Source: Lachnospiraceae bacterium (GTDB lineage Bacteria; Bacillota; Clostridia; Lachnospirales; Lachnospiraceae). Taken from it: a DNA stretch of 53,635 nt. Shown in pieces: positions 30,389 to 53,431 of the stretch. Below the pieces are notes generated by a model. The model did not search any database and was not told the origin of the DNA. It saw nothing but the letters and a program-made list of their open reading frames with translations. The translations under genes and the position numbers were made by a program. The DNA lies in the NCBI GenBank assembly GCA_017439675.1, contig JAFSIQ010000027.1, positions 1 through 53,635 on the forward strand. The letters run 5' to 3'. Numbering within the stretch: the first letter of the stretch is position 1; each line of letters begins with the position of its first letter.

Positions 30389-30481
30389 ATTCTCACCTCT
30401 CTGTGTAAAGCATGTCTGAACTGCACCCTTCACTCTTCTAACACACAATTACACCTTTGTCTTAATAGCAAATTATATAGC

Positions 30482-34973: not shown

Positions 34974-35090
34974 TATGCATATGGCAATCGTCGCTAAACA
35001 CAAATTACCAACACATGCTTTTGTGCATCACAATCGTAACTAAATTCAAATTGATAATACTTACTTTCGTGCATCACAATCGCAAATGAA
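34974..35090. repeat. Imperfect ~46-bp tandem repeat around the aroK 3' end
   Basis: GTGCATCACAATCG occurs at 35023-35036 and at 35069-35082, 46 bases apart; a degenerate third copy (GCATATGGCAATCG) lies near 34977-34990. The second exact copy includes the stop codon of the aroE-aroK gene, so the 3' end of the gene appears to have been duplicated into the gap. Confidence 0.55.
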
Positions 35091-36453
35091 CTTTCATATC
35101 TTCCACAATCGCTTCCATGTCATTCGAATTTGTATCAATAATGACATCTGCCACCTGCTCATATATGGGCTTTCTCTGCTTCATCATATCGCATATCTTA
35201 CCAAAAGGATTCTCTCCCTGTAGTAAAGGTCGATTGGTATCTTCCTTGACTCTTTCGTAAATTTCCTTTGGTGTAGCAGTAAGATATCCCACCCTTCCAA
35301 TTTCTCGAAGCAATCTGGCATTTTCCTTTCGCAGAGGCATTCCCCCACCTGTGGCAAGTACTGTATTGCATAAGTTCTTCGAAAACTCCTGTAGAATCTG
35401 GGTTTCTAACGTTCGGAAAGCCTCCTCTCCATCTTCTTCAAATATCTTAGGAATAGACTTTCCAGCACGCTTTACAATATATTCATCTGCATCTAAAAAT
35501 TCCATAGAAAGTGACTTTGCACAAGCCTTTCCAAATGTTGTCTTTCCACTTCCCATAAAACCAACTAATACAATATTATCCTTTTTATAAACTCGACGTT
35601 TCAATTCCACATACACCTCATCAATAATATCCTTTGGAACCTTAACATCATGCCAGAGCTCATATGCAATGACAGCCTGATACAACAACATCTTTAAGGC
35701 GTTGTATGCTTTTCCACCTGCTTCTTCCACTAATTGCATAAATTTAGTCTCAGCCGGATTATAGATTAAGTCCACCCCGACTGTAACCTTTTTATAAAAT
35801 GCTTTATCCTCCAAAACAACCTGCTCCACATTCGGACTTAATCCAATTGAGGTTGCTTGAAATACAATCACCTTATCCTCTTCTATCTGCGTATAGCTTT
35901 TCAGTTCCATCGGAACAACTGCGTCCGTTGCAAATGCTTCATTCATACCTTTCGCTATCTCTTTTGCTTTGGGAAGTGTACGATTTAACAGATATATCCT
36001 CTTTGCGCCTTCTAACAAACACATATACACAACCGCCTTTGCCGCACCACCGGCTCCTAGTATAACCACCGTCTCGTCTCGAAGTGATACATCATCTTCT
36101 CGAATCTGACGTTGCAAGCCTAACATATCCGTATTATATCCCTTATACCCGTGCAATTCTTCTACCCTTACTAGCGTATTCACTGCACCAATGGCATTTG
36201 CTGCATCGTCAATTGCAACAACAGACTCCATTACATCATTCTTATGAGGAACTGTAACATTCATTCCTAATACATTTAATTCATACGCACCTTTCACAGC
36301 ATCCTGTAATCCCTCTGTCTCCACCTGAAATGGTACATACACAGAATTGATTCCCATACGCTTACTGATATTATTATGTATCACTGGCGAAAGTGTATGC
36401 TCTACCGGATTTCCAATTAAACCGATTAATCTCGTGTGTCCATTTATCTCCAT
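35074..36453 (-). CDS. aroE-aroK: Fused shikimate dehydrogenase - shikimate kinase
   Basis: A 459-aa bifunctional protein for two consecutive steps to chorismate. Residues 1-285 are AroE: GLIGNPVEHTLSPVIHN, the catalytic lysine in NVTVPHK (K71), the catalytic aspartate in GYNTDM (D109) and the NADP loop VILGAGGAAKA. Residues about 290-459 are AroK: Walker A VGFMGSGKTTFG, the shikimate/Mg site DADEYI, and the substrate loop ATGGGMPL. The ATG at 36453 has AGGAG seven bases upstream. There is no stop or frameshift between the halves, so it is one polypeptide. It lies downstream of the YqeG-type phosphatase gene. Confidence 0.95.
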   Translation of the reverse strand: MEINGHTRLIGLIGNPVEHTLSPVIHNNISKRMGINSVYVPFQVETEGLQDAVKGAYELNVLGMNVTVPHKNDVMESVVAIDDAANAIGAVNTLVRVEELHGYKGYNTDMLGLQRQIREDDVSLRDETVVILGAGGAAKAVVYMCLLEGAKRIYLLNRTLPKAKEIAKGMNEAFATDAVVPMELKSYTQIEEDKVIVFQATSIGLSPNVEQVVLEDKAFYKKVTVGVDLIYNPAETKFMQLVEEAGGKAYNALKMLLYQAVIAYELWHDVKVPKDIIDEVYVELKRRVYKKDNIVLVGFMGSGKTTFGKACAKSLSMEFLDADEYIVKRAGKSIPKIFEEDGEEAFRTLETQILQEFSKNLCNTVLATGGGMPLRKENARLLREIGRVGYLTATPKEIYERVKEDTNRPLLQGENPFGKICDMMKQRKPIYEQVADVIIDTNSNDMEAIVEDMKVHLRL

Positions 36454-36552
36454 GTTCGTGCTCCTTATTGATTCCATTAAAATACTACTATTATCTATTA
36501 TTAGCTTGCCTATGTAATGACATATTCTCATTCACTAACATAATTACTTATT

Positions 36553-37448: not shown

Positions 37449-37479
37449 ACAGCGTGAAGGTTTAAAACCTTCACGCTGT
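37449..37479 (-). terminator. Terminator of the pilus operon (31-bp palindrome)
   Basis: A perfect 15-bp arm palindrome (ACAGCGTGAAGGTTT and its complement around one central base) lies 15 bases after the stop of the giant protein gene. It is followed on the minus strand by GTTTGTGTTAT, only moderately T-rich. Confidence 0.6.
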
Positions 37480-37493
37480 AAAATTACTGATTC

Positions 37494-40400
37494 TTAAATT
37501 GTGTAATTCTTCTTGTTCAATACATCCATAACTGGTGTATCTGTCCAAGTCTTCTGAGAATCCTGTGTCGCATCTGTTAAGTCAAACAAATGTGGAATAA
37601 TGTTAATCTTAACTCTTGCGGCCTTCCACTTACCCTTCTCATCCTTTACACGAATTACAATATAAGTCCAATTCTTATTCTGAGCGAAATAATCTTCCTC
37701 TAACTTAAGTGTCTGAGGGAATACGGTTTCTCTCAAGCGCTTACGCTTTCCGTCCACCTGATCAGACTTATCATAAGAAGTAATTAATACATGGTTATCA
37801 TCATCCACATAGGTATCTGATTGATCCATTCCATCACCATCACCATAGTTCAAGTCATAGAATACAACTACTTCTTTAATATCAGCAGTACCAGCAATTG
37901 CCTTAAAGTCAAATTCAGGATAAATTTCTGTCTGTGACTCATCAATATTGTACTGATACATCTCAATTGCTTCATTGTAGAACAATGTATTAATCTCTTC
38001 TGATAACTTCTCATTGCCCTCTTTATCCTTAGGATCAACATATAAGTCATCACAATTCTCGTGTGAGTTACCTTCCTCATCGCACTTGTTGTAAAGCTTA
38101 AGCTTAGGTCCGGTAACACCCTTTGTTACACTGTTAACAATAACATTGATGAACAATCTTCTCTCATCATTGTTATCCTTATCTTTACCAGTAATAACCT
38201 GATGTCCAGCACCCGTGTAGAACACATTCTCTTTACTGTACAAGAAATAGTTATTCATACCATCTCTTGGCGATGCAGCAAAGTAAGAACTTACATAGTG
38301 TGCAAACTCTGAAGTAATGTAACCATCATCAACTACTGTCGCTCCCAATGTATACCAAACTGCTACGGATTCATCCTCCATGTCTAAGGAGAATGTCTGT
38401 GAATGAGTAGGTGAAATCAACAACTCATCACTGATAGCAAATGGATACATGGTAACACCACCTTCATTGACCTTTTCGGCTTTTCTGGTACCATACTTTC
38501 TCTCATATTGCCAACCATCAACATCAACACCCTCATGGTCAAATGACTCTAAGTCAGATGAAGCATATCTATATGGAGAGGTTGGTCTTGAACTTGAGTG
38601 ACAAGATGCATACAAATCAGTAATGCCAACTGGTGCATTGTAACGCAGATATCCATCCACATTATAATGATTAATTCTAGTCTGGAAATCAGCCTCTGTC
38701 GCAGCCTGTATACGCTGTGTCCAGAAATACTTCGAGTTATCAATGGTGTCATACAGTCTATACTTGCATCCTGTTGGTGCATCATAGATACTCGTCGTGG
38801 CTGCCCATGCCGGATTAATAACAAAACTTGCTACACCATTATCATTCGTCTGTGATACCAACTGATTACCTCTATAATCACAGGTAACATTAATTCCACT
38901 TGGAACCGGATTGCCATCACTTAAAACCGTTACATTCAACTGAATCGTTCCGTCTGCCGCAACCTCTGTAGTTGCTGCACTCGCAGTAAAGACGCCACTC
39001 TTTCCTTCCTCTGTCGCCATTGTCGCATTCACATTACTTTCACCAAGCTGGAAAGAACCTCGTGAAATCTCTGTTTCTATGGAAACTGGTGCAGAAATTG
39101 TAATGGATTCATAAGCACCACCAGTTATAGGAACTACACTTTCATTCGGATCTAAATACAATAAATCGCCCTGATCACTGAGACTACCAACAAAAGTAAC
39201 CTTAATATCTTCACCAACACCCTTTGGGTCACCAACTTCTCTATAAGACAAGTTACCACCCCATCCAGTATTAACAGTAATCTCAATATCACGATTACTA
39301 ATTGGTACAGATAATCCTCCCCAAGTCTCACCGAACTGATTTCTGATACCAAACTTAACATTCTTTGTAGAAGGAACCGTATAGTTCATCTCAACAGCTA
39401 CATTTACAGTACTGCTCTCACCAAAGTCTACAACATGGAAACGGTCCATACCAAATGCTGCACGTAGCTCATCAGACATGTTTGGAGCACCGTCTGATTT
39501 TGCGGTGATAGTATCATGTGTATTCAATAAAGAACCACCCTGAGCCAAATAGTCCTTAATCTGCGTACATGCTGTATCAGATAAATCCTTGCCATTAAAC
39601 TCGTCCGAAAGACCAAGAACGATAATATCATAATTATTGGCCATCCAAGTCTTTGTATCACCCGCCTGACGCAGATTTGTCTTATACTGTTCCTTCAAAG
39701 CAACCACTTCGTCATAAGCAGTAATGTAGCTATTATATGCATTTGCTAACGCTACAATATTCTGTGGCTTGTAATTACTAGCACCTGAAATTGTATTGTT
39801 GAAATACTCCCAGAACTTATAGTAATCTCCATCAATTATCCATAATCCTGGATTTTCGGCATTACCAATACCATTCACAATTTGTTGTCTGTATGCATAG
39901 CCCGTTGCATCAATGGAAGCAGCCGCTTTATACAATTCAGTCTCAAGATTTAATCTTAGTAGATTGGTCTTAGCTGTTAACGTAGCATACTGCTCCTCAT
40001 ACTTTACAAGGAATTCATCTGCCAACGCAGTTGCAGTATCAATCTGCTCCTCTGTTCTTTCAGTAGCACCTGTACACAACTCTTCAAACTCTTCTACTGT
40101 TAAGATGTCGATATCAAATTCATAATCGCCATCTTCCAATGTACCACTCTCACCATGGGTCAATTCATCCGCAAAATTCTCTTCCCAATTGTCGAGATTG
40201 GTGGTTGTGTCATACACAACAATACCAAAGTTATGCTCATGTTTTCCGACTGTAACCGCTGGGATTCCATCTGTTCCCCATACAGTTTCAATGTCCTGAC
40301 ATGAATCTATATTGGTTCTAGCTGTCGCATTTGTATTGACGGTCATATTATTTTCAATCATCTTTGCTGCCATCTGACATTCTGTACAGAAATACAACGT

Positions 40401-43073
40401 ATGACCATGTGTATAGGCTGCCGCACCACCTGATGGGAATGGCTTATCGACTGGCATTACCTGCAAAATACGAACCTTCTTCTTCATATCCTCTGTAACC
40501 TTGAAGAATGCATTACCAGACTTCACATCACAGAGCACACCGTTCGGTGCTGTTGCACGAATCTTCCAATTAACAAGACCAAAGAAATCTTCATCTAACT
40601 GGTATGACAAATCAACTGTAGCACCAGACGCACAGGTTGCACTATCAACCTCTTCCTCTTCGGAATACATACCATCACCATTGGTATCCACCAACAATGT
40701 CACTTCATACGATGAAGCATCTTCATCTGTAGCATTCAAGTTCACACCTGCGGTAAAGGTTGCAGTTGCATCTGTATTCGTTGTACTAGCGTTTCCTTCC
40801 ACATATTGTTTTGGATAAGAAGTAACCGCTAAAGATGGTCTTTTCGCTGAGCCAGTAATCAAAGCTTTAATGCCGGTTTCACAATCCTTATCATAGACTG
40901 TTACTGTGGAGCCTAACGTATTACCATATTCTCGATCTAAATTATCAACCGCAGTCTCATCTGTTGCAGCATCAACCGTTCCCCAACCCACATTGATAAC
41001 AGAACCTTCTGTCACCTTCTTATATGTATATTCTAAAAATTGATACATATTAGAATCTGGGTCAATATCATGAAGCTCCAATTGCTTCAAACGATTACCA
41101 GCAGTATAAGATTTTTCAAATGCATCCGTAACTAACTTATCAATGATAATTGGCAAACCAGAATCCACATAATCCTTTAACTGGTCACGCTTTGTAACAG
41201 TCAAATCATTACCATTAAACTCAACAAAGTTACTTGCATTAGCGCCACCAACTCTGTTATAGGTCATTGCTGAATCATAATCTACAAAGGAACCTGTATG
41301 CGTGTACATATCAAAGGCAGTAAAGGCAGCTGTAACTCTAGGCACAATATCATTCTGCCAGTTCCAATCACCACCGGAATAGTTAACCTGCATATATGGC
41401 ACCAACGCAGATGCATCACCACCGATATACACCAAGTCGTAATTCTCTAACACAACTTCCTTTGAAGAAATCAACTCATTCGTTGACATTGCTTCAATCT
41501 CAATCTGGTCATAAGGAACACCTGTAGCATGTGCAATCTTTGCCTTACTTATCTCGAACGCATAATATTCTACATCTGCTTCAATCTCGTCCTTGGTTAC
41601 ACCGTAAAGCACCTGGTCAGGATATATATAATATCCACCTGTAAAGCCTGCACCAGCATACTTTCCTCTAGTAGGCAACGTCTTGGCAAGATCCAGATCA
41701 ACTGGATAACATGGCTGAATCTCCAGTACACGGTACTTTCTACCACCTGCACCAGATGTGGAACTGTCACGGTACTCAGAACCATTCAACAAATCAGCAA
41801 TTGGCTCTGCACCTGCAATACCACCTGCACCCTGTTCAACCAAAGAAGCAAAATATCCATAAGTAATGGCGAGCACATTCTTTCTCTGCTCCACGCCCTT
41901 ATCACTTACATATAACTGCAATAACTTCAAATAGTTATTCGCAGTTCCTGAAATCGTTCCAGTTGAAGTTGAAATTAATCTTGAATCATAAAGGATATAC
42001 TTACTTGATTCTGACAAAGCTTTCAACTTCTTATATACTGCATCTGTCATTGTAAGAGCTTTTGCATCATTCTCAATTAAAATGAAATCATAACCCTTAT
42101 TAAGCTCCTCCACAGTAAGTGGTGTTGTGCTTGCATTCCAGATTGTATATTTCATTTCTTCTGGCTTTAATTCATCTTTACCATAGTAAGCCTCTTTGAT
42201 TACATTTGCATATCCAGACATTCTGGTATACATACTATCTCCACCTGGAGTATCAGAAGCAGTCACCACAAGAACCGTACCAGGTGCTCTCTGTGATAAC
42301 CCATTGACACCATACTTCAAGTAATAAGAAGCATTGTCTTTTGCAGTAAAGAATTTGTCTGCCGCCAATCCATCTGTCCACGAAAACGTACGGAATTTAA
42401 TATGGTTACGGCTAACTGCATTCACAAAATCAAAATATGTCTTCGAAGTTGCAGATGATGAAGACGATGATGATGTAACAAAATCCATAATAATCGGCTT
42501 GTTACTAGCAACATAATTATGTAAATAATTATACACATCCTCACTCATATTACTAGTTCCATTATACGATGTATAGGTTGGACTACTAACATAAATCAAA
42601 TCTGCATTATCCATTATCTCCTGAATGGTTGAACCAGAAGCATGCATATCTTCCATCTTCGTTTCTGGATTCACCGATACAGATTGATAACTTACCATGG
42701 ATTTAAACTGTGCTTCCGTAAATGTACCTGCATATGTCTCTCGATATGCGTACAATACATACTGCGCAAATCCACCACTAGTTGAATACTTCTCCAAATC
42801 GGTTGGCGTACCTGTACCATATGGAAGAACTTCAACTATATTAAAGGTTTCACCCTTTTCTGCATTTTCCAAAATCAAATCAATGCTACTTAGATACTCT
42901 ACACCTGTAATGCTAGACGCTAAGCTTTGCACTTCATTCTGGGCTATGTCTCCACTACTACTGTTACTATCACCACGATTTAACTTGGCAATAGAGTAGG
43001 AAGCCACAGAAACTACGGTAAATGCTACAAGTAAAATTGCAATTGTTTTTAAAATTACATTCTTTTTCAACAT
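37494..43073 (-). CDS. Giant exported DUF5057-like protein of the pilus locus
   Basis: A 1,859-aa protein with an N-terminal membrane or signal segment (about residues 5-28), then an entirely extracellular-type sequence. Three related alpha/beta modules begin with similar strands: FNIVEVLPYG (about 77), YRVLEIQPCYP (about 447) and VRILQVMPVDKP (about 867). Each later has a 'YD-hydrophobic' strand and a glycine or proline turn (YDLVYIGGD; DYVDSGLPIIID; NYDIIVLGLSDEF with GGSLLNTHDT), reminiscent of glutaminase or ThuA-like folds. An EF-hand-like loop DTNGDGMYSEEE lies near 796-807, and Ig-like regions near 750-860 and 1220-1430. The start has AGGAG six bases upstream. I recall similar proteins being catalogued as DUF5057. 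As last gene after the minor pilins, it is a candidate tip protein; that is inference. Confidence 0.8.
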   Translation of the reverse strand: MLKKNVILKTIAILLVAFTVVSVASYSIAKLNRGDSNSSSGDIAQNEVQSLASSITGVEYLSSIDLILENAEKGETFNIVEVLPYGTGTPTDLEKYSTSGGFAQYVLYAYRETYAGTFTEAQFKSMVSYQSVSVNPETKMEDMHASGSTIQEIMDNADLIYVSSPTYTSYNGTSNMSEDVYNYLHNYVASNKPIIMDFVTSSSSSSSATSKTYFDFVNAVSRNHIKFRTFSWTDGLAADKFFTAKDNASYYLKYGVNGLSQRAPGTVLVVTASDTPGGDSMYTRMSGYANVIKEAYYGKDELKPEEMKYTIWNASTTPLTVEELNKGYDFILIENDAKALTMTDAVYKKLKALSESSKYILYDSRLISTSTGTISGTANNYLKLLQLYVSDKGVEQRKNVLAITYGYFASLVEQGAGGIAGAEPIADLLNGSEYRDSSTSGAGGRKYRVLEIQPCYPVDLDLAKTLPTRGKYAGAGFTGGYYIYPDQVLYGVTKDEIEADVEYYAFEISKAKIAHATGVPYDQIEIEAMSTNELISSKEVVLENYDLVYIGGDASALVPYMQVNYSGGDWNWQNDIVPRVTAAFTAFDMYTHTGSFVDYDSAMTYNRVGGANASNFVEFNGNDLTVTKRDQLKDYVDSGLPIIIDKLVTDAFEKSYTAGNRLKQLELHDIDPDSNMYQFLEYTYKKVTEGSVINVGWGTVDAATDETAVDNLDREYGNTLGSTVTVYDKDCETGIKALITGSAKRPSLAVTSYPKQYVEGNASTTNTDATATFTAGVNLNATDEDASSYEVTLLVDTNGDGMYSEEEEVDSATCASGATVDLSYQLDEDFFGLVNWKIRATAPNGVLCDVKSGNAFFKVTEDMKKKVRILQVMPVDKPFPSGGAAAYTHGHTLYFCTECQMAAKMIENNMTVNTNATARTNIDSCQDIETVWGTDGIPAVTVGKHEHNFGIVVYDTTTNLDNWEENFADELTHGESGTLEDGDYEFDIDILTVEEFEELCTGATERTEEQIDTATALADEFLVKYEEQYATLTAKTNLLRLNLETELYKAAASIDATGYAYRQQIVNGIGNAENPGLWIIDGDYYKFWEYFNNTISGASNYKPQNIVALANAYNSYITAYDEVVALKEQYKTNLRQAGDTKTWMANNYDIIVLGLSDEFNGKDLSDTACTQIKDYLAQGGSLLNTHDTITAKSDGAPNMSDELRAAFGMDRFHVVDFGESSTVNVAVEMNYTVPSTKNVKFGIRNQFGETWGGLSVPISNRDIEITVNTGWGGNLSYREVGDPKGVGEDIKVTFVGSLSDQGDLLYLDPNESVVPITGGAYESITISAPVSIETEISRGSFQLGESNVNATMATEEGKSGVFTASAATTEVAADGTIQLNVTVLSDGNPVPSGINVTCDYRGNQLVSQTNDNGVASFVINPAWAATTSIYDAPTGCKYRLYDTIDNSKYFWTQRIQAATEADFQTRINHYNVDGYLRYNAPVGITDLYASCHSSSRPTSPYRYASSDLESFDHEGVDVDGWQYERKYGTRKAEKVNEGGVTMYPFAISDELLISPTHSQTFSLDMEDESVAVWYTLGATVVDDGYITSEFAHYVSSYFAASPRDGMNNYFLYSKENVFYTGAGHQVITGKDKDNNDERRLFINVIVNSVTKGVTGPKLKLYNKCDEEGNSHENCDDLYVDPKDKEGNEKLSEEINTLFYNEAIEMYQYNIDESQTEIYPEFDFKAIAGTADIKEVVVFYDLNYGDGDGMDQSDTYVDDDNHVLITSYDKSDQVDGKRKRLRETVFPQTLKLEEDYFAQNKNWTYIVIRVKDEKGKWKAARVKINIIPHLFDLTDATQDSQKTWTDTPVMDVLNKKNYTI

Positions 43074-43108
43074 AGCTTTCTCCTTTCCTTTCATCTATTC
43101 CTCGTATA

Positions 43109-44047
43109 TCATGGTGTCGTAACACCAGTTCCTTTAACCTTATATAACTTCTGTGGACGAACAGTCAACACATTAGAATTTCTAAAATTAATGGTTTCCA
43201 CTGCATTATACTGATATCCGCCCTCTTCAAACAAAATGTTTGTTAAGAGTGCATTACCTTCTGAATCAGCTGACAAATAGAAATCAACTACATGCTCAGT
43301 CAGCAAACCATCTGCTGACACCGCCGCATTGGTATACACCTGCAACTTAGCCGTTGCATAAAGCAATGATCTCTTATTAACTGGATCTGTGGTTTCATAA
43401 CGATGCATAAACACAGAACGCGTTCCTGTCTTGGCATTGGCAGGAGTAAAGTAGAAAATAACATGCACGGTTGCCTCTGTTCCATCATCTCTTGTTTTGG
43501 AATATTCAGCATATATATATGATGGCATAATATAACTATAATCTGCCCCCGTCTTCAATGCTCTGAAAGAACGAACCTTTTGTCCTTCCTCAGCATCTCC
43601 TGAAATAGGATAAGCATCTCCAGTTTCGCTTACAATCTGAAAATTGTCATAATCTACAATTACCTTCCTGTCTTCCGCGTAATAGCCACCCATCTTAGAA
43701 TAATTACCATAATTATCAGGAACAAAGCTATAATCAACAGTTCCCTTAGATGTGTCTTCCGTAACAACACGTTCATTCTTTCCAGTGGCATTCTTTGTAA
43801 TTGTATACATCTTGCCATCCATAGACTCAATTCGCACATAATCTGCTTGCATCAACGTGTCAGACATTTGTTCAATAACCTGCATTGCTTCTGTCTGAAT
43901 ACTCATATTCTTTTTCGACTTACGATATGCACCAGATGTTGTAGACATAAACTGTGAAACCATAATCATAATAATTGAAAGGATTGTAATTGCAATCAGT
44001 AATTCAATTAATGAAAAACCTTGGTTTGTTTTCTTCGTTTTTCCCAA
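43109..44047 (-). CDS. PilW/GspJ-like minor prepilin
   Basis: A 312-aa prepilin. The basic leader KTKKTNQG is followed by the cleavage site G/FSLIELLIAITILS with the conserved glutamate at +5, and a hydrophobic helix of about 20 residues. The pilin-type globular part starts with SIQTEAMQVIEQMSDTLMQADYV. The size and N-terminal helix fit PilW or GspJ pseudopilins, which help start pilus assembly. The initiation codon is TTG at 44047, with AGGAGG eight bases upstream; no ATG lies before the cleavage site. It overlaps no neighbour and precedes the giant protein gene by 35 bases. Confidence 0.88.
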   Translation of the reverse strand: MGKTKKTNQGFSLIELLIAITILSIIMIMVSQFMSTTSGAYRKSKKNMSIQTEAMQVIEQMSDTLMQADYVRIESMDGKMYTITKNATGKNERVVTEDTSKGTVDYSFVPDNYGNYSKMGGYYAEDRKVIVDYDNFQIVSETGDAYPISGDAEEGQKVRSFRALKTGADYSYIMPSYIYAEYSKTRDDGTEATVHVIFYFTPANAKTGTRSVFMHRYETTDPVNKRSLLYATAKLQVYTNAAVSADGLLTEHVVDFYLSADSEGNALLTNILFEEGGYQYNAVETINFRNSNVLTVRPQKLYKVKGTGVTTP

Positions 44048-44060
44048 TTGCTCGCCCTCC

Positions 44061-44642
44061 TTACTTCACATAATGATTACCGGTTACGGAGTCCAGATAC
44101 ACAGTTCCCACAACCCTGTTATCATAATAAAAATCATAAGTACCTGCACCATATTTTACCGAGCCGTCAGCCTTATTAAATTGAATAATCACATCCCCTG
44201 TAATAAAGCCAGACCCATCAATACTGGTTTTGCTATGAACCTGCTTAGAATTCGTCGGTGTATACTTAATATCAACCAAATGGGTCAATGTAGCATGTGA
44301 CTCTTTGTCCGTCACATCAGTGTCCTTATTATATGCGGTCTTCACTTCAAAGCTACCATCACGAATATCATCCGAGGAGTCTTCATTCAAAGTCACCACC
44401 ATACAAAGAGGATACTTTGCTCCATCCGTTGCATCCGTTGGATTAAGCTGTACCTTACTCTGCGAAATCGCCTTCGTCTGAATCCACAAGTTACTCAACT
44501 GAGTCTGAAAGGTACTAATAGACGAGTTGTACTTTGCTTGATGCATAACCTTCAACGTAACGAAAGCAACACCCGTCAATATCGCCATGATGGCGATGAC
44601 AATTAACATTTCAATTAATGTATAACCTTTGTTCTTTTTCAT
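44061..44642 (-). CDS. GspH/FimT-like minor prepilin
   Basis: A 193-aa prepilin with a short leader KKNKG, cleavage before YTLIEMLIVIAIMAILTGVA, glutamate at +5, and a GspH-type globular domain. The C-terminal part contains GDVIIQFNKADGSVKYG, resembling the beta region of GspH/FimT. It is probably part of the minor pilin complex with its neighbours. Confidence 0.9.
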   Translation of the reverse strand: MKKNKGYTLIEMLIVIAIMAILTGVAFVTLKVMHQAKYNSSISTFQTQLSNLWIQTKAISQSKVQLNPTDATDGAKYPLCMVVTLNEDSSDDIRDGSFEVKTAYNKDTDVTDKESHATLTHLVDIKYTPTNSKQVHSKTSIDGSGFITGDVIIQFNKADGSVKYGAGTYDFYYDNRVVGTVYLDSVTGNHYVK

Positions 44643-44653
44643 GCCATCACCAC

Positions 44654-47575
44654 CTAATCTACGTTCTTCAGCCAGTTGTCGTAGCTTAGAATATCTTCAA
44701 ACTGTACTGCACTAATGCTCTTAGTAGATTCCGTCTCAATAGAGCCAGAATCATCATCCTTCTTGTAAATAGATTGATACTGCTGGAACAACTCACAAAC
44801 TGCAAAGTAATTTCTAGAGCCTGTCTGTACTTGTGATTCATCACACTCACGTAGAATTGTTTTAATAATCTCTGCGTTTGCCATGATATTCATGCTCTGC
44901 TCAACCTTAATCTTACTTCCTGATACAATTAATCCTTCGAAGGATTTCACATCTGTATCAAAGGTAACATCACCACGGCAAATTACCATACCCTTAACAT
45001 TGCCGTCTGCAAATCCATCTGCAGTAACGTGTACATCATCCTTACATACCCAAATCTTATAACCTGAGTTCAATACTGTTGTAACATCTGTCCATGCATC
45101 TCCAAGCTTATTAAAATAGAAGAAATAATTAATTGGAGTAATATCACTTTCCTGCATTGTATGCGCATCCTGAACTGCATTAGGATTACTACTTGTAGAA
45201 GAAAGTGTCCACTTAACCTCTTTGTACTGGGTCTGCAATCGGGATGTAACATTCTTTGAAAGAAGTTCTACATCTTGTTTGTCAGATGTGCTGATTGAAT
45301 CCGAACGTTTCTTATCATCATCTGCAATATACTTATTCTGCTCGACAATATTATTATTAATTGTGTATGCAGCTTCAAGCAATGGATTAATACTGCTACT
45401 CTTTGCTTTAATTGTAAAGCTAGTATCATTCTTCACCGAAATAGCAGAATTAGAAAAGATATTAGTATAATTTCCATTACTATCTACATCTGGAGCCTTT
45501 GTTGTCTCATCATAGGTTGTATTGATTTTCAACATCTCCACTTCGAAGTAATCATAATCTGTAATATTCGTCAAGCCGTAAGTCTCACCCTGTGAAACAG
45601 TCTCACCTTCCTGCAATGTAAACATCTCTGCATACGCTTCAATAAAACTGTTCATGACATCCTGACTCAAGCCAGCTTTCGTAGTAGCTTCTGTCGAAAA
45701 ATCAAAGAAGTAATATTCTTTACCTGATACCACAGTTTTAATAATAGGAATCTTAGATAAATCCTCCCAATTGTTCTTAAAAATATCAAGATTTCTAAGT
45801 TCAACTGGTAAAGACAAATACAAGCCCTTCTCTGTATCATTCACACGCCAATTTGGAATGTATGCCAACTGGTTACTCTTAATTGAAATCGCTTCACCAG
45901 TACGATAATCCTGAATTGTCGTATTCTTTGTCTTGTCTGTGGCATCCGCTGTGTTAGTGGTATAGTTATCAGCGTCCAAATCTGGATACTGATATGCTTT
46001 GTTCTCCACAGCTTCTAAAGCACCGGCTTTGTTCGTAACCTCATATGCCTGGCTCGTCTCCTTACCATCTGCATCAATCACCTTGTCACTGGTCTTTGTT
46101 ACCTTGGAGGTCTCAATATATGCCTGACCTGCAATATACATATTCTGAACACTTGATAAATCCAAAACGGAATCCTGTCCATTTACAATAATCGCACTAC
46201 TATTATAATGCGCCTGACCTTCTAAGGTAGCACCATCTGCAATTGTACTAGCTACAGCACTTACGAATGTTCTACCTCCATTTGCCTTAACACAGGCATC
46301 TGTATAGGTACGGTTATCCAAAGATGCATAATTGTATCCGTAATAATCACCAACCAATGCAAAGTCCGCTGCTTCTGCATTGATTTCTAAATCATCTGCA
46401 ATAAATGCATCCGCACGCATACGAACGATGGAACCCTTCACATCATCGGAGCCGGCTTTTTCCAATAAGGAATAACCACCCAAAACGATTCCATCAGCCC
46501 AAATCTCTGCCGAATTATACATACTATCATTGGAACCAAAAACTGTAAGCTCTGCACTGTTAAATGCTGCGATAGTACCCGGTACAATTACACGGTCTGC
46601 TGAGATAAACACCTCCGCACCATCAATATACAAACCGGAGTACATACTCTTCTCATTCTTACCATTGCAGCTTGCAGCTCTTGCTTCTGTATCTTTATAG
46701 CTACTAACGGCTGCATACTTCGCCGCAGTTCCATCCTTCTCACTCTTTGGAAGATAATTCGGATTATTAGAATCGGTAATATTATAATCCTTATTATAGA
46801 AGTCGGCCGCCGCATAAATACTACCAGTAATATTAACCTTCGTAGTTGCATTACCAATCTCAACACCCTTGTCTGCAACAAGCGCAAAATCATACAAATC
46901 ACTCAAATCAGAGTCAATTGTATTAAAGTTTACATCAAACTCAGGCTTTCCAATTACTAAATCTGTTGTAATCGTCTGCACAAAGGTTTCACCAGCAGGA
47001 ACTGCACCGTTCGCTGCTTTCTTTGTATTAATTGTGCTATACACAGCCTCACGCTTCAACACAAGACTTTGGATAGTCAAATCATCTGCTGTAGTTGCAA
47101 CATTGCCAACAGACAATTGGACACCCTCAGCATTACTTGTAGCATCATACAAGTTACTGATAAAGGTTTCCAAATGCGTCTGCACTGCAGTCGCATCCTT
47201 ATAATTCGGATCATCCTTCACAAGCTTGATATATGTATTTTTCAGAATGCGGTTTGCATCCTCATTCTTCATTGTAACATATGCTTGTGTTGTTACATCA
47301 AAATACACCAAAACCTCAATGGTATCATCGTACGCATCATTCAGATGAATCATCGCATCTGCACCAACGCCCGCATAGATTTCATCCATCGCCTGTTCTA
47401 GATAATAAAAATTATCCCTAGCGTTAATGTCATACGCCTTCATCTTGTAAATTACTGCAACAGCAACTAACATTGCTGTTACCAAGACAGAGAGGAATGC
47501 TAATGTGGCAACAACCATAATAAAACTGTTACCTTGATTCTGCATTTTGCGTTTACGTCTATGCTTTTTTATCAA
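44654..47575 (-). CDS. PilX-like large minor pilus protein with beta-helix-like region
   Basis: A 973-aa protein starting with a basic stretch (KKHRRKRK) and the PilX/GspK-like N-terminal helix GNSFIMVVATLAFLSVLVTA, then YYLEQAMDEIYAG, the usual 'AAE' area of PilX. The middle (about 230-510) and the end (about 880-925) have regular short beta strands such as VNITGSIYAAADF, VFISADRVIVPGTIAAF and KGMVICRGDVTFDTDV, which look like a beta-helix or bactofilin-like fold. The start is a TTG at 47575 overlapping the upstream stop (TTGA), with GGAGG nine bases before it. It is much larger than ordinary PilX. Confidence 0.75.
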   Translation of the reverse strand: MIKKHRRKRKMQNQGNSFIMVVATLAFLSVLVTAMLVAVAVIYKMKAYDINARDNFYYLEQAMDEIYAGVGADAMIHLNDAYDDTIEVLVYFDVTTQAYVTMKNEDANRILKNTYIKLVKDDPNYKDATAVQTHLETFISNLYDATSNAEGVQLSVGNVATTADDLTIQSLVLKREAVYSTINTKKAANGAVPAGETFVQTITTDLVIGKPEFDVNFNTIDSDLSDLYDFALVADKGVEIGNATTKVNITGSIYAAADFYNKDYNITDSNNPNYLPKSEKDGTAAKYAAVSSYKDTEARAASCNGKNEKSMYSGLYIDGAEVFISADRVIVPGTIAAFNSAELTVFGSNDSMYNSAEIWADGIVLGGYSLLEKAGSDDVKGSIVRMRADAFIADDLEINAEAADFALVGDYYGYNYASLDNRTYTDACVKANGGRTFVSAVASTIADGATLEGQAHYNSSAIIVNGQDSVLDLSSVQNMYIAGQAYIETSKVTKTSDKVIDADGKETSQAYEVTNKAGALEAVENKAYQYPDLDADNYTTNTADATDKTKNTTIQDYRTGEAISIKSNQLAYIPNWRVNDTEKGLYLSLPVELRNLDIFKNNWEDLSKIPIIKTVVSGKEYYFFDFSTEATTKAGLSQDVMNSFIEAYAEMFTLQEGETVSQGETYGLTNITDYDYFEVEMLKINTTYDETTKAPDVDSNGNYTNIFSNSAISVKNDTSFTIKAKSSSINPLLEAAYTINNNIVEQNKYIADDDKKRSDSISTSDKQDVELLSKNVTSRLQTQYKEVKWTLSSTSSNPNAVQDAHTMQESDITPINYFFYFNKLGDAWTDVTTVLNSGYKIWVCKDDVHVTADGFADGNVKGMVICRGDVTFDTDVKSFEGLIVSGSKIKVEQSMNIMANAEIIKTILRECDESQVQTGSRNYFAVCELFQQYQSIYKKDDDSGSIETESTKSISAVQFEDILSYDNWLKNVD

Positions 47576-49176
47576 GATTCATCTCCTCCCTTCGTCGCAG
47601 TCATAATAGGGTCTGCTGTCATATCTACAGCATCTAAATCGTCCCCTTCTACCATCCATACTTTAATCTCATACAAGCCACGACTCTCTTCTTCTGCTCC
47701 ATCCAGGGATGTAAAGTCTGCTACACTGTTAGCAGCATCAACATTATGACCAGAAGAATAAGTAACTAACGGTACATAGTCCACAGCCGAGAACGCTGAA
47801 TTAAATAAGCCTCCTGCTTTTGCATGATAACTGTGGAAGAAAACTTGATGACTCTTCTTATTGGAACCAGTATTTAAAATAGTACTTCCAACATCATCAA
47901 TGTCAAAATTATGATAAACATGCACATTTTTAAGCTTAGAACCCTTCTTCGCAGCTAAATGTATTCTAACCTGCGAACGCGTACTACTTGTTTGTGTATT
48001 GTCATTATAGAGCGTAGGTGTGACAATATTGCCACTACCATCAACAGTACCTAAATCATTATTCGCACTGACAATATCATCCGAATAGGTTGACGCTGTT
48101 TCAACAATGAAACACTTAACCGTAGTCTTATCATCTAGCTCTGTTGTATCCATAACAATATAATCGTCCGCCGAAAACATTCCGTTATACAGACACACAT
48201 TATACATCAAATAAATATTTGGTAATGTGGCAACACCCGTTGTAGTATCAACTGGGTAAGTATACTCAAATGGAACATATTCAATATAGTAATCTCGTAA
48301 TGCACTCGCCACCGTTGAATTTGTTTCACAATTATCATGATATCGAAGAATACAACGCACTGTATAGCCGGTATCCGGTGCACCTGACACCTTAACTGTG
48401 ATTGTTCTCGTCGCCGTATCATAAGGAAACAGCTCTACAGAACCTTGCTGCTGAGTATACTGCTCGTATACATCAGGAAGCTTTTCCTTTAACACCTCAA
48501 CCTTCTTTGTTAAGAATGCATTTGACACAGACGCATCATAATTGGCAATGGTACCATTAATCAATGCAACCTTTGTGTGGTCAATGTCTTCTACAACACC
48601 CAATGCAAGATTGTTCGGATTAATATACACGTCACCATTGTCCATCGCAACCTGTTCTTTCTGTGCATAATATTTGTTACTAATCTGCACCTTATAAGAA
48701 TAGGTTTCATGCTCCGTTCCAAGCTTCACCTTTCCACCAAGAGTATATACCTCGTATGGAAAATACTTGGTCTCCAACGTATTCATGTCTATACTTGATA
48801 CATCAGTATTACCTGTTGAAAAACTCCAACCCATATCATCGGCGATTTTCTTCATATTCTCCAGTGATGCATCATAAGATGCATCACCTGGATCCTTATA
48901 AAATTCAACTGAGCCGATTACCGGTGTAGATGACCCTGTATAGGAACCTATGCTAGAAAAGTAATCTCCCGAAACAATATTCTCAATGGAATCCTGCTTC
49001 ACATACTCAACAACATTCTCAACATATTCATTACGGTATTGAAGTGTTTTTGCATCTGTAGTCTTCCGCATTGACGTAATAATACCAGACACAATAGGCA
49101 TCATTAATACAGTAAAAATCGCAAGTGCAATCAAGATCTCAACCATACTAACACCTTTGTTATTCATTTTTCGCAT
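47572..49176 (-). CDS. PilV-like large minor prepilin
   Basis: A 534-aa prepilin. The leader RKMNNKG is followed by the cleavage site G/VSMVEILIALAIFTVLM with glutamate at +5 and the helix continuing to about residue 34. The globular remainder is long and beta-rich, with CILRYHDNCETN and SQVRIHLAAKKGSKLKNV. PilV/GspI pseudopilins are usually far shorter, so the extra 350 residues may be a binding domain. The gene is between the PilO-like and PilX-like genes and overlaps the latter. Confidence 0.85.
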   Translation of the reverse strand: MRKMNNKGVSMVEILIALAIFTVLMMPIVSGIITSMRKTTDAKTLQYRNEYVENVVEYVKQDSIENIVSGDYFSSIGSYTGSSTPVIGSVEFYKDPGDASYDASLENMKKIADDMGWSFSTGNTDVSSIDMNTLETKYFPYEVYTLGGKVKLGTEHETYSYKVQISNKYYAQKEQVAMDNGDVYINPNNLALGVVEDIDHTKVALINGTIANYDASVSNAFLTKKVEVLKEKLPDVYEQYTQQQGSVELFPYDTATRTITVKVSGAPDTGYTVRCILRYHDNCETNSTVASALRDYYIEYVPFEYTYPVDTTTGVATLPNIYLMYNVCLYNGMFSADDYIVMDTTELDDKTTVKCFIVETASTYSDDIVSANNDLGTVDGSGNIVTPTLYNDNTQTSSTRSQVRIHLAAKKGSKLKNVHVYHNFDIDDVGSTILNTGSNKKSHQVFFHSYHAKAGGLFNSAFSAVDYVPLVTYSSGHNVDAANSVADFTSLDGAEEESRGLYEIKVWMVEGDDLDAVDMTADPIMTATKGGDES

Positions 49177-49197: not shown

Positions 49198-50409
49198 TTA
49201 ATAAACCTTTACAGAACCCGACTTGCTAACAATATCTACTCTTGGAGATACACTGTCATCTCCGCTCACCTTTACATACACTGGCAATGATGTTGTGTTG
49301 CGAATTGTAATCTTAAGACCAACCTTATCATCATCATTCTTTCTTGCAGAAGACTGAATTAACAGCTTAACATCCTCCGCAGATGTTACCTCTGCCTCAT
49401 AAGAAACAGAATCGCCTAATGTATACTTACAATAATTCTTTCCATCCTTCTCATAGAAATCGAAAGTCAAAGTTGTAACATCATTGTCACTGTTAGAAAT
49501 AACACTTGCTTCCTTACCAGAACCATTCTGTCCAACAACTTTAGCAGAAACATCACTTGTTGCTGCATTCAACATTGCATAGAAATCATAGCTTGATTCA
49601 ATTGCAGCACCATCATTCTCATCATACTTAGTCATAGAAGACTCTGCCTTAGAAGAACCAGAACCAACTGCACCCTGGAAAATGTTGTCAGAGCCAATCT
49701 CAACCTCATTCATCTCCATAGAAGTCTCAGGTCTATCATTTCCCATGATTGCATAAAGCTTTAAGTTAAGTTCACCAGCATAGATATCCTCATCTGCCTC
49801 ATATACAATGTTAATAGCGTCAATTGTCATTCTGTCTTCGTATTCATTTACATAACGGATAACATCCTTCAAAGACTCATACGAACCATAGTATGAAAGA
49901 GGGAAGTCTGCACGGTAACATGTATAACCCTCCTCATCAACAACTGATTCTTCTGTTAACGCTGCATCTGTTGTTGCAGCTGCTGTTGTTGCCTCCGTTG
50001 TTGCGGTAGTTCCAGCAGTAGATGCATCTAAAGTTGTATCTCCACCGCCAATACCTAATGTATAGAACTGCTCTGGCTCACCCAAGGTTAAGGACTCAAT
50101 ATTAAACTCATTGCTATCCTTAATACCTTCCAAGAACATAATTGTAACTTCCTGGTTCAAGTCTGGAGCAAAATATTCCATTCTTTCCTGAAACTTCTCT
50201 TCAAACTCAACAATACCAGCTTCATACTCTGCTCTCTTAGCTTCCTTCTGCTGTAATTCCGTCAATCGAGCCTGTAACTGGATACATTCCTGTTCAATCT
50301 GCCCTTTTGCTTCCCAATTAGGCTTCATAACATACATAAAACATAATACTGCAACTGCAACACCAAATACGATAATGAGTGCGCTCTTTTCTGCGTCCTT
50401 TAACTTCAT
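49198..50409 (-). CDS. PilO-like inner-membrane pilus assembly protein
   Basis: A 403-aa protein with a single N-terminal membrane helix (about residues 9-28) and a coiled coil (about 35-80, QECIQLQARLTELQQKEAKR). The PilO-like ferredoxin fold (about 85-230, with YRADFPLSYYGSYESLKDVIRY) is interrupted by an Ala/Thr-rich linker near 120-155. An additional C-terminal domain of about 165 residues has a Ser/Gly-rich lead-in and beta strands (TTLTFDFYEKDGKNYCKYTLG; VGLKITIRNTTSLPVYV). PilO pairs with PilN in the inner-membrane alignment complex; the extra domain may take over the role of PilP, which is not encoded here (inference). Confidence 0.82.
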   Translation of the reverse strand: MKLKDAEKSALIIVFGVAVAVLCFMYVMKPNWEAKGQIEQECIQLQARLTELQQKEAKRAEYEAGIVEFEEKFQERMEYFAPDLNQEVTIMFLEGIKDSNEFNIESLTLGEPEQFYTLGIGGGDTTLDASTAGTTATTEATTAAATTDAALTEESVVDEEGYTCYRADFPLSYYGSYESLKDVIRYVNEYEDRMTIDAINIVYEADEDIYAGELNLKLYAIMGNDRPETSMEMNEVEIGSDNIFQGAVGSGSSKAESSMTKYDENDGAAIESSYDFYAMLNAATSDVSAKVVGQNGSGKEASVISNSDNDVTTLTFDFYEKDGKNYCKYTLGDSVSYEAEVTSAEDVKLLIQSSARKNDDDKVGLKITIRNTTSLPVYVKVSGDDSVSPRVDIVSKSGSVKVY

Positions 50410-50426: not shown

Positions 50427-52052
50427 CTATTCTACAGTCAAGCCACCAGATGTCGCTTCTTCTTCAACACCGATTTGCTCTTCTTCCACCATAGATACAA
50501 ACTGACATGTCAAATTGAATTCATGAATTTCCTCGCCTGTCTCATCGTCAATTGATGTCTCAACGTCAGTAACAAATGCGTCTGAAATACACTCAATTTT
50601 CTTCAACTCGATAATGAATTTTGCAATCGCATCATAGTTTGCTGCAGTTGCAAGGATTTTCACATCACTGTCACTAGAAGCATACTCTTGTACAGCCACA
50701 TCTTTAGGGATGCAATCTTCCATAGCTTCAATAAACATAATAACATTCTCATTCAACGTACGAGTATTATCATACATAACCATAATATCATCATACTTAG
50801 CTTTTGCAGCGTCATACTGTGTGATAATCTGGTCAATATCCTGAATCTTAGCAATCTCTGCATTCAGATTATCTCTCTTCTTCTCCTGTGTATCCTTAAG
50901 ATACCAAGTCAAAGCACTTCCTGCAACAGCAACCACAACCAATACACCTGCAAATGCTGCACAGTACTTAAAGTAATTAGTATCACCTACACTCTTACTC
51001 TTAACTTCAACTGGTAAGAAGCCCATCGGAGCAAATGATGCACCAATTGCTGTCACCAAATATACCGGGCTAAAAATCTTCTGGTCAATCTTCGAATCAA
51101 AGTTGACATTGTACAAGCTATCCATAACCTTAGTCTGGATATTCAACTGAATCTTGAACAAACCGTCAACACCACGAATCAAAGCACCATCACCAACTAA
51201 ATACACATCATCAATTGGTTTATCTGGATTCTTTGCCACGTAGTAGTCAATCACACGACCAATGTTATTTACAAGGTAACGGAACGCACCTGTAATTGCA
51301 TTGTCATCGAAATCAACTGTAATCAATCTTTCATTCTGAAGAAGTGTCATTGCTGTTGTAGCATCAACACCCTTTTCATCCATAACCTCTGTTACTACAG
51401 CATTTGTTCCATAAGGTACTGTTCTCTGTAATAATAAAGTGTCACCCTTTACAATATTCAAAATAGTAGCCTCGCTACCTAACTGGATAACCATTGTTGT
51501 TGAGTTCGCACTTGTCTGCGTCTTAATCAACTGCAACATTGCATTACCAACATAATCAATTGACTGTACTGTCAATCCCAACATGCTACCGAGTTCGTAA
51601 TAACTCTTTACCATCGCCGTTGGTGCAGCTACAACCATAAGCTTTAACTGCTTTGTCTTGTCTTCGCCAACAACATGCTCCAATATAGAGTGAGAAACTA
51701 CATAATCCTCTATATTAACTGGGAAATACTCAGATGCATTTGCACTGACAATTCCCTTCACTTTATTCTCTTTTACTTCCGGAATTAATACTTCACGATT
51801 TACCACCTTGGTAGATGTAAGAATGAAAATTGCATTCTTATTCGTAATTCCGTTCATCTCCAACTGTTCTCTGATTGCACTTGCAATCTTTTCTGAATCC
51901 TTGATGTTACCATCCTCATAAGAATCTTCAGGTGTCTCAAAAATCAGTGCATTATGCACCTGTGTTCCCTTCTTCACTGAAGGAGTAACTTCAACAATTG
52001 TAATACTTTCATTTGTTATGTCTATCGTTAAGACTTTATTACTTTTCGCCAT
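50427..52052 (-). CDS. pilM: PilM-PilN fusion protein
   Basis: A 541-aa protein joining two usually separate pilus assembly components. Residues about 5-340 are PilM, an actin-like (FtsA-fold) ATPase: VLTIDITNESITIVEV, EYFPVNIEDYV and DDVYLVGDGALIRGV. A PilN-like part follows. GFLPVEVKSK at about 344-353 corresponds to the conserved INLLP segment with which PilN contacts PilM. A membrane helix (about 363-386), a coiled coil (about 388-430) and a PilN ferredoxin-like domain complete it. The ATG at 52052 is chosen, because GGGAGG lies eight bases upstream; the ATG two codons earlier is only two bases from it. It forms the cytoplasm-to-membrane platform with the PilO-like protein. Confidence 0.87.
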   Translation of the reverse strand: MAKSNKVLTIDITNESITIVEVTPSVKKGTQVHNALIFETPEDSYEDGNIKDSEKIASAIREQLEMNGITNKNAIFILTSTKVVNREVLIPEVKENKVKGIVSANASEYFPVNIEDYVVSHSILEHVVGEDKTKQLKLMVVAAPTAMVKSYYELGSMLGLTVQSIDYVGNAMLQLIKTQTSANSTTMVIQLGSEATILNIVKGDTLLLQRTVPYGTNAVVTEVMDEKGVDATTAMTLLQNERLITVDFDDNAITGAFRYLVNNIGRVIDYYVAKNPDKPIDDVYLVGDGALIRGVDGLFKIQLNIQTKVMDSLYNVNFDSKIDQKIFSPVYLVTAIGASFAPMGFLPVEVKSKSVGDTNYFKYCAAFAGVLVVVAVAGSALTWYLKDTQEKKRDNLNAEIAKIQDIDQIITQYDAAKAKYDDIMVMYDNTRTLNENVIMFIEAMEDCIPKDVAVQEYASSDSDVKILATAANYDAIAKFIIELKKIECISDAFVTDVETSIDDETGEEIHEFNLTCQFVSMVEEEQIGVEEEATSGGLTVE

Positions 52053-52085
52053 CTCCATAGCCTCCCTTGCTAATCAGAAGTTTTT

Positions 52086-52916
52086 TTAATAGGGCATTAC
52101 ACCCAGCATGTTCAGATACCAGCTTATCAGCTGTTCACCGCATATCATTGTAAAATAAACGCCCAAGGATAAATACGGGCCGAGAGCAAGTCTTGCACCG
52201 CTCCCCTTAATCTTCATTCGAATCAGATGAATCACTGACCCTGAGATGCATCCAATTCCCAACGCTAAAAAATTAAGTTTCCAGCCTAAAAGTAAGCCAG
52301 TTGCTGCCATTAGTTTGATGTCACCGTCCCCTACCACTGAAGTCAACTCACCTTCCTCATCACTGTACTTTGACGCAAGAAGCCTTGTGCCGACTTTATC
52401 TATCAGTAATAAAAAACCGCTGACTGCAATAAGACCAATTACATATTCAAACCAATTAGAAAAATCTGCAAATAATTGAATCAGTCCACATATTACTATT
52501 ACCAACGTATATTCCAATGGAATATATTCCGTATTCCAATCAACCACGCCAAGTGCAAGCAGCATAGCACTTGAAATACCAAAACAAATACTAGACAAAT
52601 TAATCCCTTTTGACCAGAAAAGAATTAACGCTAGTATCATGCTTACCACGAAATAAATTATGTATTGTTTCTTGTAATCGCCAACCGCCCACTTGCAGTA
52701 ACCTCTGACCTTTCGATTGGAAAGTAGCATGAATTCATCCACCCAATTGTTCTTTCCCACCAAAAAAGGGCTTTGCGCGAAGCATGTATTCTTCCTCTCG
52801 CACCGTTCGCATTCACTTCCATCCTCAATCGCCTGAACAAAAGAAGCTAGTGGAATCGAGAGCATTCCAAATGCAGTTGCTACTATCATAATCACAATCA
52901 CAAAAAACCCATTCAT
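52086..52916 (-). CDS. pilD: Prepilin peptidase (A24 family)
   Basis: A 276-aa polytopic aspartic peptidase that removes prepilin leaders. The two catalytic aspartates are visible: one in GVVDWNTEYIPLEYT and one in the family motif VVGDGDIKLMAATG. Seven to eight hydrophobic segments are present. The first cytoplasmic loop (about 33-80) has CERCERKNTC and GYCKW but not the usual pair of widely spaced CxxC motifs, so this domain is divergent. It follows the pilin gene, with a hairpin in the 59-base gap. Confidence 0.9.
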   Translation of the reverse strand: MNGFFVIVIMIVATAFGMLSIPLASFVQAIEDGSECERCERKNTCFAQSPFLVGKNNWVDEFMLLSNRKVRGYCKWAVGDYKKQYIIYFVVSMILALILFWSKGINLSSICFGISSAMLLALGVVDWNTEYIPLEYTLVIVICGLIQLFADFSNWFEYVIGLIAVSGFLLLIDKVGTRLLASKYSDEEGELTSVVGDGDIKLMAATGLLLGWKLNFLALGIGCISGSVIHLIRMKIKGSGARLALGPYLSLGVYFTMICGEQLISWYLNMLGVMPY

Positions 52917-52975: not shown

Positions 52976-53431
52976 TTACTCTACCAAATTAGCACCAACA
53001 GTAGGATATACCATGGTATTCGGATTAACTGAATCCAAGTATACCTCAATCTCGTTGTTAACTGGATCCATAACAACCCAGAACTGCTGATTCAAAGCAT
53101 TTCCCTGGAAATCCTTTCTTGCCTTACCAGCAACGTTAGCCGCAGCACCCATAGTTGCATCCAATTCATCCTGCATATCCTGTCCCTGTGCGCTAACAAA
53201 GCTTGCGTAATCAGCACCAGTAGTAGCAACAGCAGCATCATAAGCTTTCTCGTTAGATAAAGCAGTCTGGATAGATGTTGCAATTGTCTGTCCAGTCTGG
53301 ATATCTGTTGAGATTCTAGACTTGTTGATGTACTTGATAAGTGCTGGAGCTAATGCACCTGCTAAAATAGCCATAATCGCAATAACGATAATGAGCTCGA
53401 CCAATGAGAAACCTTTGTTTGTCTTTTTCAT
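52976..53431 (-). CDS. pilA: Type IV major pilin
   Basis: A 151-aa prepilin: a short basic leader (KKTNKG), cleavage before FSLVELIIVIAIMAILAGAL with glutamate at +5, and a long hydrophobic N-terminal helix that extends into YINKSRISTD. A small globular domain follows, with conserved aromatic strands (NQQFWVVMDPVNNEIEVYL). Its size, its position at the head of the assembly genes and its strong AGGAG site (seven bases upstream) fit the major subunit. There are no cysteines, so no disulfide loop as in many Gram-negative pilins. Confidence 0.9.
   Translation of the reverse strand: MKKTNKGFSLVELIIVIAIMAILAGALAPALIKYINKSRISTDIQTGQTIATSIQTALSNEKAYDAAVATTGADYASFVSAQGQDMQDELDATMGAAANVAGKARKDFQGNALNQQFWVVMDPVNNEIEVYLDSVNPNTMVYPTVGANLVE

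Follow-up and report, generated by a model that had tools for sequence, protein, structure and literature searches.

A DUF5057 protein encoded with minor pilins is a candidate non-pilin component of a Gram-positive type IVa pilus

In the type IVa pili of Gram-negative bacteria, PilY1 and PilC are large exported non-pilin proteins that are encoded with minor pilins, carry a calcium-type loop, and have a more variable N-terminal part and a C-terminal end that possibly docks on PilX. In the available portion of a Myxococcus study, models have the eight C-terminal residues of PilY1 forming a strand on PilX (PMC11046646), and a 2026 study, as far as its accessible text goes, predicts the same docking in further complexes, finds that one in three of the PilY1 proteins it compares has a vWA domain at the N-terminus, and gives PilY1 a role in pilus priming (PMC13190605). 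Among Gram-positive pili, the modular minor pilins PilB and PilC of Streptococcus sanguinis are candidate adhesive parts, and the accessible text of a later paper describes a glycan-binding minor-pilin complex in this species (PMC9934059). Here we describe a protein from a pilus operon that we consider, with a probability of roughly 0.6, to be an exported non-pilin component of a Gram-positive, retractable type IVa pilus in the position held by PilY1/PilC. No such protein is described in the available portions of a 2011 survey of Gram-positive pili (PMC3244431) or of a 2019 review, the latter of which reports that late-stage components are missing in monoderms (PMC6916266); the accessible text of a study of Paenibacillus thiaminolyticus pili includes an operon figure with hypothetical proteins of unknown function (PMC9765702).

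The gene lies on the minus strand of a contig of 53,635 nucleotides that was analysed over its whole length, hereafter the window (Table 1). From the ATG at 43073 to the stop codon at 37494 it encodes 1859 amino acids; the first ATG of the open reading frame, at 43094, would extend this to 1866 codons, but 43073 is the likelier start because an AAAGGAG ribosome-binding site lies six bases before it. Residue numbers below refer to the 1866-residue form unless stated. The protein is a member of the Pfam family DUF5057 (PF16480), which it matches in two stretches. The Pfam model spans the end of module A, an Ig-like domain and part of module B; other modules, and a C-terminal end that is conserved, lie outside it. 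NCBIfam models gave no match at E 0.1, and a literature search largely without subscription papers found no paper on DUF5057 or PF16480. DUF5057 was detected in 63 of 299 genomes of the window's family, in 38 of 118 from a second family in another class, 37 of these 38 scoring over the cut-off, in 7 of 398 drawn from across the phylum and in none of 14 control genomes; we infer the two families to be the Lachnospiraceae and the Paenibacillaceae, respectively. Two scans of viral contigs yielded no relative, and a plasmid search with a second-family protein, rather than that of the window, gave one match, in its pAdhesive_15 part.

An earlier, sequence-only reading of this DNA had proposed that the gene closes an operon in which minor pseudopilin genes precede it, and both parts of the proposal agree with our analysis. 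The four preceding genes encode three prepilins and a PilX-like protein, and the 701-base stretch after the DUF5057 gene contains one terminator-like site, against a mean of 0.3 in shuffled sequence, with its 14-pair hairpin and T-rich tail starting 15 bases past the stop. We assigned the names PilV, PilW, GspH and PilO from the prepilin motif, the order of the genes and matches below cut-off; on the PilW/GspJ-like prepilin, the role models PRK10557, ComGF, ComGE and GspJ all fell below their cut-offs. The 973-residue protein has one hydrophobic segment and itself matches no family, PilX_N included, and it is read as PilX/GspK-like because PilX_N is the commonest family among 32 orthologous N-termini (10/32, best E 8.5e-6), followed by DUF2232 (7/32, best 0.0033). 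This giant protein (44654-47575) and its orthologues have a conserved end of their own, with NW in the last 18 residues of 35 of 38 PilX-like proteins versus 10 of 531 others. A congeneric genome has pilB-, pilT- and pilC-like ORFs at the start of the operon, and the window's genome carries, on another contig, two T2SSE ATPase genes side by side that we read as PilB- and PilT-like. Past the terminator-like site, an ORF at 35074-36531 on the minus strand reads like a shikimate dehydrogenase-shikimate kinase fusion, and the ORF at 28679-30448 on the same strand, between leuD- and leuB-like ORFs, looks exported and reads like a surface protein with leucine-rich repeats and Ig-like domains.

Table 1. 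Coordinates of the features discussed (window positions) and the basis of each assignment.
Feature	Position	Strand	Basis
DUF5057 protein, encoded at the end of the pilus operon	37494..43073	-	ORF; DUF5057 92.7 bits against cut-off 27.9; ribosome-binding site
Predicted export signal without prepilin motif	42987..43073	-	hydrophobic N-terminus; cleavage site read from sequence
Module 1 (residues 75-440)	41775..42872	-	profile likeness to module 2
Module 2, or A (residues 450-742)	40869..41747	-	profile likeness to modules 1 and 3
Ig-like domain (residues 745-868)	40491..40862	-	profile likeness to C-terminal domain, 86%; name inferred
Calcium-type loop DTNGDGMYSEEE (residues 803-814)	40653..40688	-	three ligand positions kept in 43/43
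Module 3, or B, split by insertions (residues 872-1665)	38100..40481	-	profile likeness to A, 97%; ThuA 30-40%
C-terminal Ig-like domain (residues 1661-1840)	37575..38114	-	profile comparison
LFDLT, tag that ends related proteins and precedes a 26-residue tail in this one	37575..37589	-	tag terminal in 42/46 proteins of the group
Terminator-like hairpin	37449..37479	-	14 pairs, T-rich tail, starts 15 bases past the DUF5057 stop
PilW/GspJ-like minor prepilin	43109..44047	-	N_methyl; NCBIfam prepilin-domain model over cut-off; role inferred
GspH/FimU-like minor prepilin	44061..44642	-	N_methyl; GspH and ComGD matches below cut-off
Giant PilX/GspK-like protein, 973 residues	44654..47575	-	family read from orthologous N-termini
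PilV/GspI-like minor prepilin	47572..49176	-	N_methyl; ComGE and PilV matches below cut-off
PilO-like protein	49198..50409	-	T2SSM match below cut-off; position after pilMN
PilM-PilN fusion	50427..52058	-	PilM_2 and PilN, both over cut-off
Prepilin peptidase PilD	52086..52916	-	Peptidase_A24
PilA-like prepilin	52976..53431	-	N_methyl

The sequence-only reading had also described three related modules with similar strand openings, which we find at residues 77 (FNIVEVLP), 447 (YRVLEIQP) and 867 (VRILQVMP) counted from the 43073 start. Comparison of profiles built from 43 sequences related module 1 (residues 62-440 in the profile) to A with a probability of 96% and A to B with 97%, and module 1 to B with only 12%, or 29% when the first part of module 1 was used alone. 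It is this first part (residues 82-215) that carries the likeness of module 1 to A (95%), the second part (residues 262-405) scoring at most 0.9% against the rest of the protein. In control comparisons the Ig-like domain reached at most 0.3% against the modules, and column-reversed profiles at most 0.15%. A lack of structural similarity among the modules, which the sequence-only reading had named as grounds for giving up its proposal, is not what we found, the modules being related by profile. The span it gave for them, residues 75-1220, was too short: insertions divide module 3, which extends to about residue 1665. The two domains named Ig-like are related to each other (86%); no Ig family matched the window protein, and 'Ig-like' is a name taken from their general look.

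A calcium-type loop had been pointed out as well, and the motif DTNGDGMYSEEE is indeed conserved within the first Ig-like domain. There, all 43 aligned sequences of the first group, that of the window, keep the first D, the N/D and the D/N, and 34 of 43 keep the G; binding of calcium is a prediction from this pattern. A strict 12-residue calcium-loop pattern occurs somewhere in 21 of 46 first-group proteins, versus 1.19 expected after shuffling, and in none of the 16 second-family proteins. By our reading of the alignment the latter seem to begin at module A, and all 16 have a Big_2 match. Adhesion-type domains were found in relatives, with pAdhesive_15 in 8 and RicinB_lectin_2 in 1 of the 16 second-family proteins and PA14 and GLEYA in one each of 27 scanned relatives; Pfam detected none of these four in the window protein. 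The DUF5057 proteins of loci L102, L103 and L113 have an additional N-terminal segment with the look of a beta-trefoil, and one of the 16 proteins in that alignment matches RicinB_lectin_2.

The association of DUF5057 with pilus genes was assessed with eleven pilus queries in 62 loci, namely the window, the locus of a named relative (L002) and 60 regions of up to 20 kb; these represent 43 of the 63 genomes with DUF5057 in the window's family, the window's own among them, 16 of the 38 second-family genomes, L002 and one genome of another family in the class. Three genes that were fragments or lay at contig edges (L069, L082 and L083) were left out of the alignments. This revealed at least one pilus gene near the DUF5057 gene in 59 of the 62 loci, across two classes, versus none of 20 control regions that were taken from 20 of these genomes and scanned in the same way, which bears out the pilus link of the sequence-only reading and is the opposite of a gene found consistently away from pilus loci, the outcome by which that reading would have been undone. 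Among the three loci with no pilus gene, the DUF5057 gene reaches the contig edge in L069 and L083, while L079 is a real exception; there, the gene (L079:7642-11589) lies between comM-like and dprA-like ORFs, and the PilMN of the genome is on another contig. The gene directly upstream encodes a same-strand prepilin in 40 of the 44 first-group loci that show one, the window included (the others being L059, L062, L079 and L082). In the second family, pilB, pilT and pilC are near the DUF5057 gene in 16 of 16 loci, and 13 of the 16 have, beside it and on the opposite strand, a PilX-like gene recognised by weak profile matches (E 9e-7 to 0.006).

At the level of whole genomes, the window's own PilMN at E 1e-10 served as the marker; PilM_2 had been dropped for this purpose, having matched 228 of 299 genomes, apparently often through related proteins. 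Within the window's family, PilMN is carried by 61 of 63 genomes with DUF5057 and by 29 of the 236 that lack it, an odds ratio of 218 (Fisher p 2e-38, a value not to be taken literally because the genomes are kin). As for the two positive genomes with no PilMN match, G422 has a DUF5057 fragment immediately after pilB-, pilT- and pilC-like ORFs, and the gene of G635 is on a 12-kb contig and adjoins a cut ORF. Three genomes (G563, G649 and G436) each have two strong, separate DUF5057 loci, and every locus is accompanied on its contig and strand by a PilMN of its own at a distance of 8.6-11.8 kb. A weak second match in G451 (27.3 bits) is on a contig that has no PilMN, and second matches in G437 and G509 are below the cut-off. 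At L183:13879-15837, a 652-residue DUF5057 part directly follows pilB-, pilT- and pilC-like ORFs, and the pilus operon there seems to lack its central part.

The DUF5057 protein could instead be mainly a factor for pilus assembly, or priming, with adhesion secondary or absent, as it is encoded with four kinds of minor-pilin-like proteins and PilY1 is itself described with a priming role in the accessible text of the 2026 study (PMC13190605). We consider this unlikely, since 29 genomes have pilMN and no DUF5057 match, and since the lower mean column identity of module 1 (13%, versus 19% each for A and B) and the domains added in relatives fit a role in display.

The modules had further been described as resembling GATase/ThuA proteins, which was taken to favour the binding of a sugar or ligand over catalysis; the likeness holds weakly for module 3 and not, in direct comparison, for the other two. 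Module B scored 30% against a ThuA profile of ten sequences and 40% with both families pooled, while modules 1 and A scored under 0.4%, in a test that is neither sensitive nor quite clean at its low end, because the intended positive control, ThuA against GH42M (the GH42 trimerisation domain), reached only 1.3% and one reversed profile scored 1.2% against vWA. Against GH42M itself, module B scored 10-12% and A 4.6%. The GxSVLFTHDT segment of module B aligns with the GxGxxxxH segment of ThuA; the likeness to ThuA and class I glutamine amidotransferases is weak, and direct for module B only. Among 24 B segments, one matched ThuA (E 0.0028) and, in the same scan, one matched the unlikely MS_channel_2nd (0.0037). 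The vWA domain was rejected as the fold of the modules, as hhalign against 19 vWA sequences gave at most 0.27% for the three (0.06-0.19% for B), and searches of PDB profiles, made with B and with A, returned only matches that look spurious (nanobodies, BceA and others). AlphaFold models of residues 440-875 and 866-1670, computed from two-row alignments of the window protein and L002, were unusable (mean pLDDT 39.5 and 33.9). A ThuA/GATase1-like fold is a fair guess for module B and, by way of A, for the other modules.

Within module B, E1644 and N1650 are kept in all 59 sequences of both groups and H1193, D1194, H1564, Q1566, D1611 and H1631 in 54-56 of 59, which suggests a putative binding site. 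Together with the scores of module B against ThuA and the GH42 trimerisation domain, these eight strongly conserved residues could point to a secreted enzyme or binding protein whose ThuA-like modules act on sugars; the pilus system would display or release this protein, which would be no structural part of the pilus. In the window protein, however, neither Pfam nor NCBIfam gave an enzyme match over cut-off, the genes before it belong to the pilus, and an enzyme leaves the conserved C-terminal end unexplained; to this reading we give a small chance.

The N-terminus of the window protein, in which the sequence-only reading had seen an export or anchor segment, does contain a hydrophobic segment, and the protein looks exported; N_methyl found no match in it. 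Across the 62 proteins of the DUF5057 family, the prepilin pattern and an LPxTG motif within the last 60 residues are both absent, so the protein should be secreted and retained with no known covalent anchor. The conserved C-terminal end of these proteins is a new observation. In the first group, 42 of 46 proteins end in an LFxLD-like tag (for example LFDLD or LFELN), according to a pattern drawn up after the ends had been seen; of the 523 other ORFs in these loci that reach 150 residues, two end in the tag, and one of these two is a second copy of the DUF5057 protein. Among the 42 tagged proteins, 41 have L and one has M at position -2, 34 have F at position -4, and a hydrophobic residue occupies position -12 in 83% and position -10 in 95%, which is strand-like. 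In the window protein, L002 and L061 the tag reads LFDLT and is not terminal, because a tail extends beyond it, and L059 has no tag. All 16 second-family proteins end in (D/N)(R/K)Y, 15 of them in D(R/K)Y and one in NRY. As published models dock PilY1 on PilX by a C-terminal strand, we propose the same role for the DUF5057 end.

For genomes with PilMN and no DUF5057 match, we took loci from 20 of the 29 genomes, three of these loci being short (L146-L148), and chose eight large ORFs as candidates for the last slot, the other loci having no comparable ORF or being cut short. Pfam gave no match over cut-off for any of them. The tag pattern fits the ends of four of the eight, and of seven only in a form that was widened after the ends had been seen. 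Four candidates match the profile of module 1 and one that of module B, so that only L129 and L136 among the seven tagged candidates share no module; with five of the seven sharing module 1 or B, they are weaker evidence for swapped, unrelated heads. At L140:1868-10411, the protein in the last slot has 2847 residues and matches module B at 1.4e-35, and Pfam does not recognise it as DUF5057. Tentatively, and with somewhat less than even confidence, we suggest that Gram-positive type IVa pili may have their own class of PilY1-like tip proteins, unrelated to PilY1 in domains, which would be plugged into the minor-pilin complex by a short C-terminal end (LFxLD-like or (D/N)(R/K)Y, according to class); as this end also appears on last-slot proteins that Pfam does not assign to DUF5057, it could be a docking code for swapping different heads onto one and the same pilus.

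The great size of the protein and its Ig-like domains, together with a loose lipobox pattern in 3 of the 62 proteins, would also suit an adhesin held in the wall or membrane that merely shares the operon. We regard this as improbable: besides the missing LPxTG, no wall-binding domain was found in the window protein or the scanned relatives, and the gene keeps the same operon slot in two classes.

Like PilY1/PilC, the DUF5057 protein is large, looks exported, is encoded with minor pilins and has a more variable N-terminal part and, in the first group, a calcium-type loop, docking of its end on PilX being a possibility in both cases; it differs from them in its related alpha/beta modules and Ig-like domains, its Gram-positive hosts, and the lack of a detected propeller or vWA domain. 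The PF05567 beta-propeller gave no match in the window protein (E 0.1) or in 16 and 27 members of the family (E 0.01), and vWA no Pfam match in the window protein or scanned relatives; as sequence searches detected neither domain, the protein is at most an analogue of PilY1, in accord with the unrelated tip protein of the sequence-only reading. A true but very divergent PilY1/PilC homologue, for which the same slot, the calcium-type loop and the more conserved C-terminal part could be cited, is highly improbable given these searches and the vWA profile scores of all three modules. The S. sanguinis proteins PilB and PilC differ in another way, in that they are prepilins whereas the DUF5057 protein has no prepilin motif.

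We favour an exported, non-pilin pilus component in the PilY1/PilC position, because of the proximity of pilus genes, the co-occurrence with PilMN, the prepilin encoded upstream and the PilMN at each locus of the double-locus genomes, and further because of the PilX-like neighbour in the second family, the PilB- and PilT-like ATPases, the conserved C-terminal end, the calcium-type loop and the adhesion-type domains of relatives. Counting against this reading are L079, G451, the 29 PilMN genomes with no DUF5057 match, the non-terminal tag of the window protein, L002 and L061, the missing tag of L059, a tag pattern drawn up after the fact, a second family that lacks the calcium-loop pattern, and adhesion-type domains that occur in relatives only. 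As such a component, the protein would leave the cell by way of an ordinary signal peptide, as its N-terminus reads, and its C-terminal strand and LFxLD-like end would dock on the complex of minor pilins, where the giant PilX-like protein is the probable partner, as the conserved end and the PilY1-PilX models suggest. By analogy, this complex may help to start assembly and then ride out at the tip of the pilus, where the three modules, the calcium-loop domain and the domains added in relatives would project outward and bind a surface or a sugar. Retraction driven by PilT, for which a PilT-like ATPase gene is present, could then pull on the contact.

The layout of the DUF5057 protein suggests, by analogy, that it combines a seat at the pilus tip with the gripping of surfaces, much like an unrelated protein of Gram-negative bacteria. 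With a widespread non-pilin candidate for the place of PilY1, pilus adhesion would become directly testable in many other Gram-positive bacteria, a DUF family would gain a place in a machine, and the conserved end would offer a simple handle for seeking further tip proteins.
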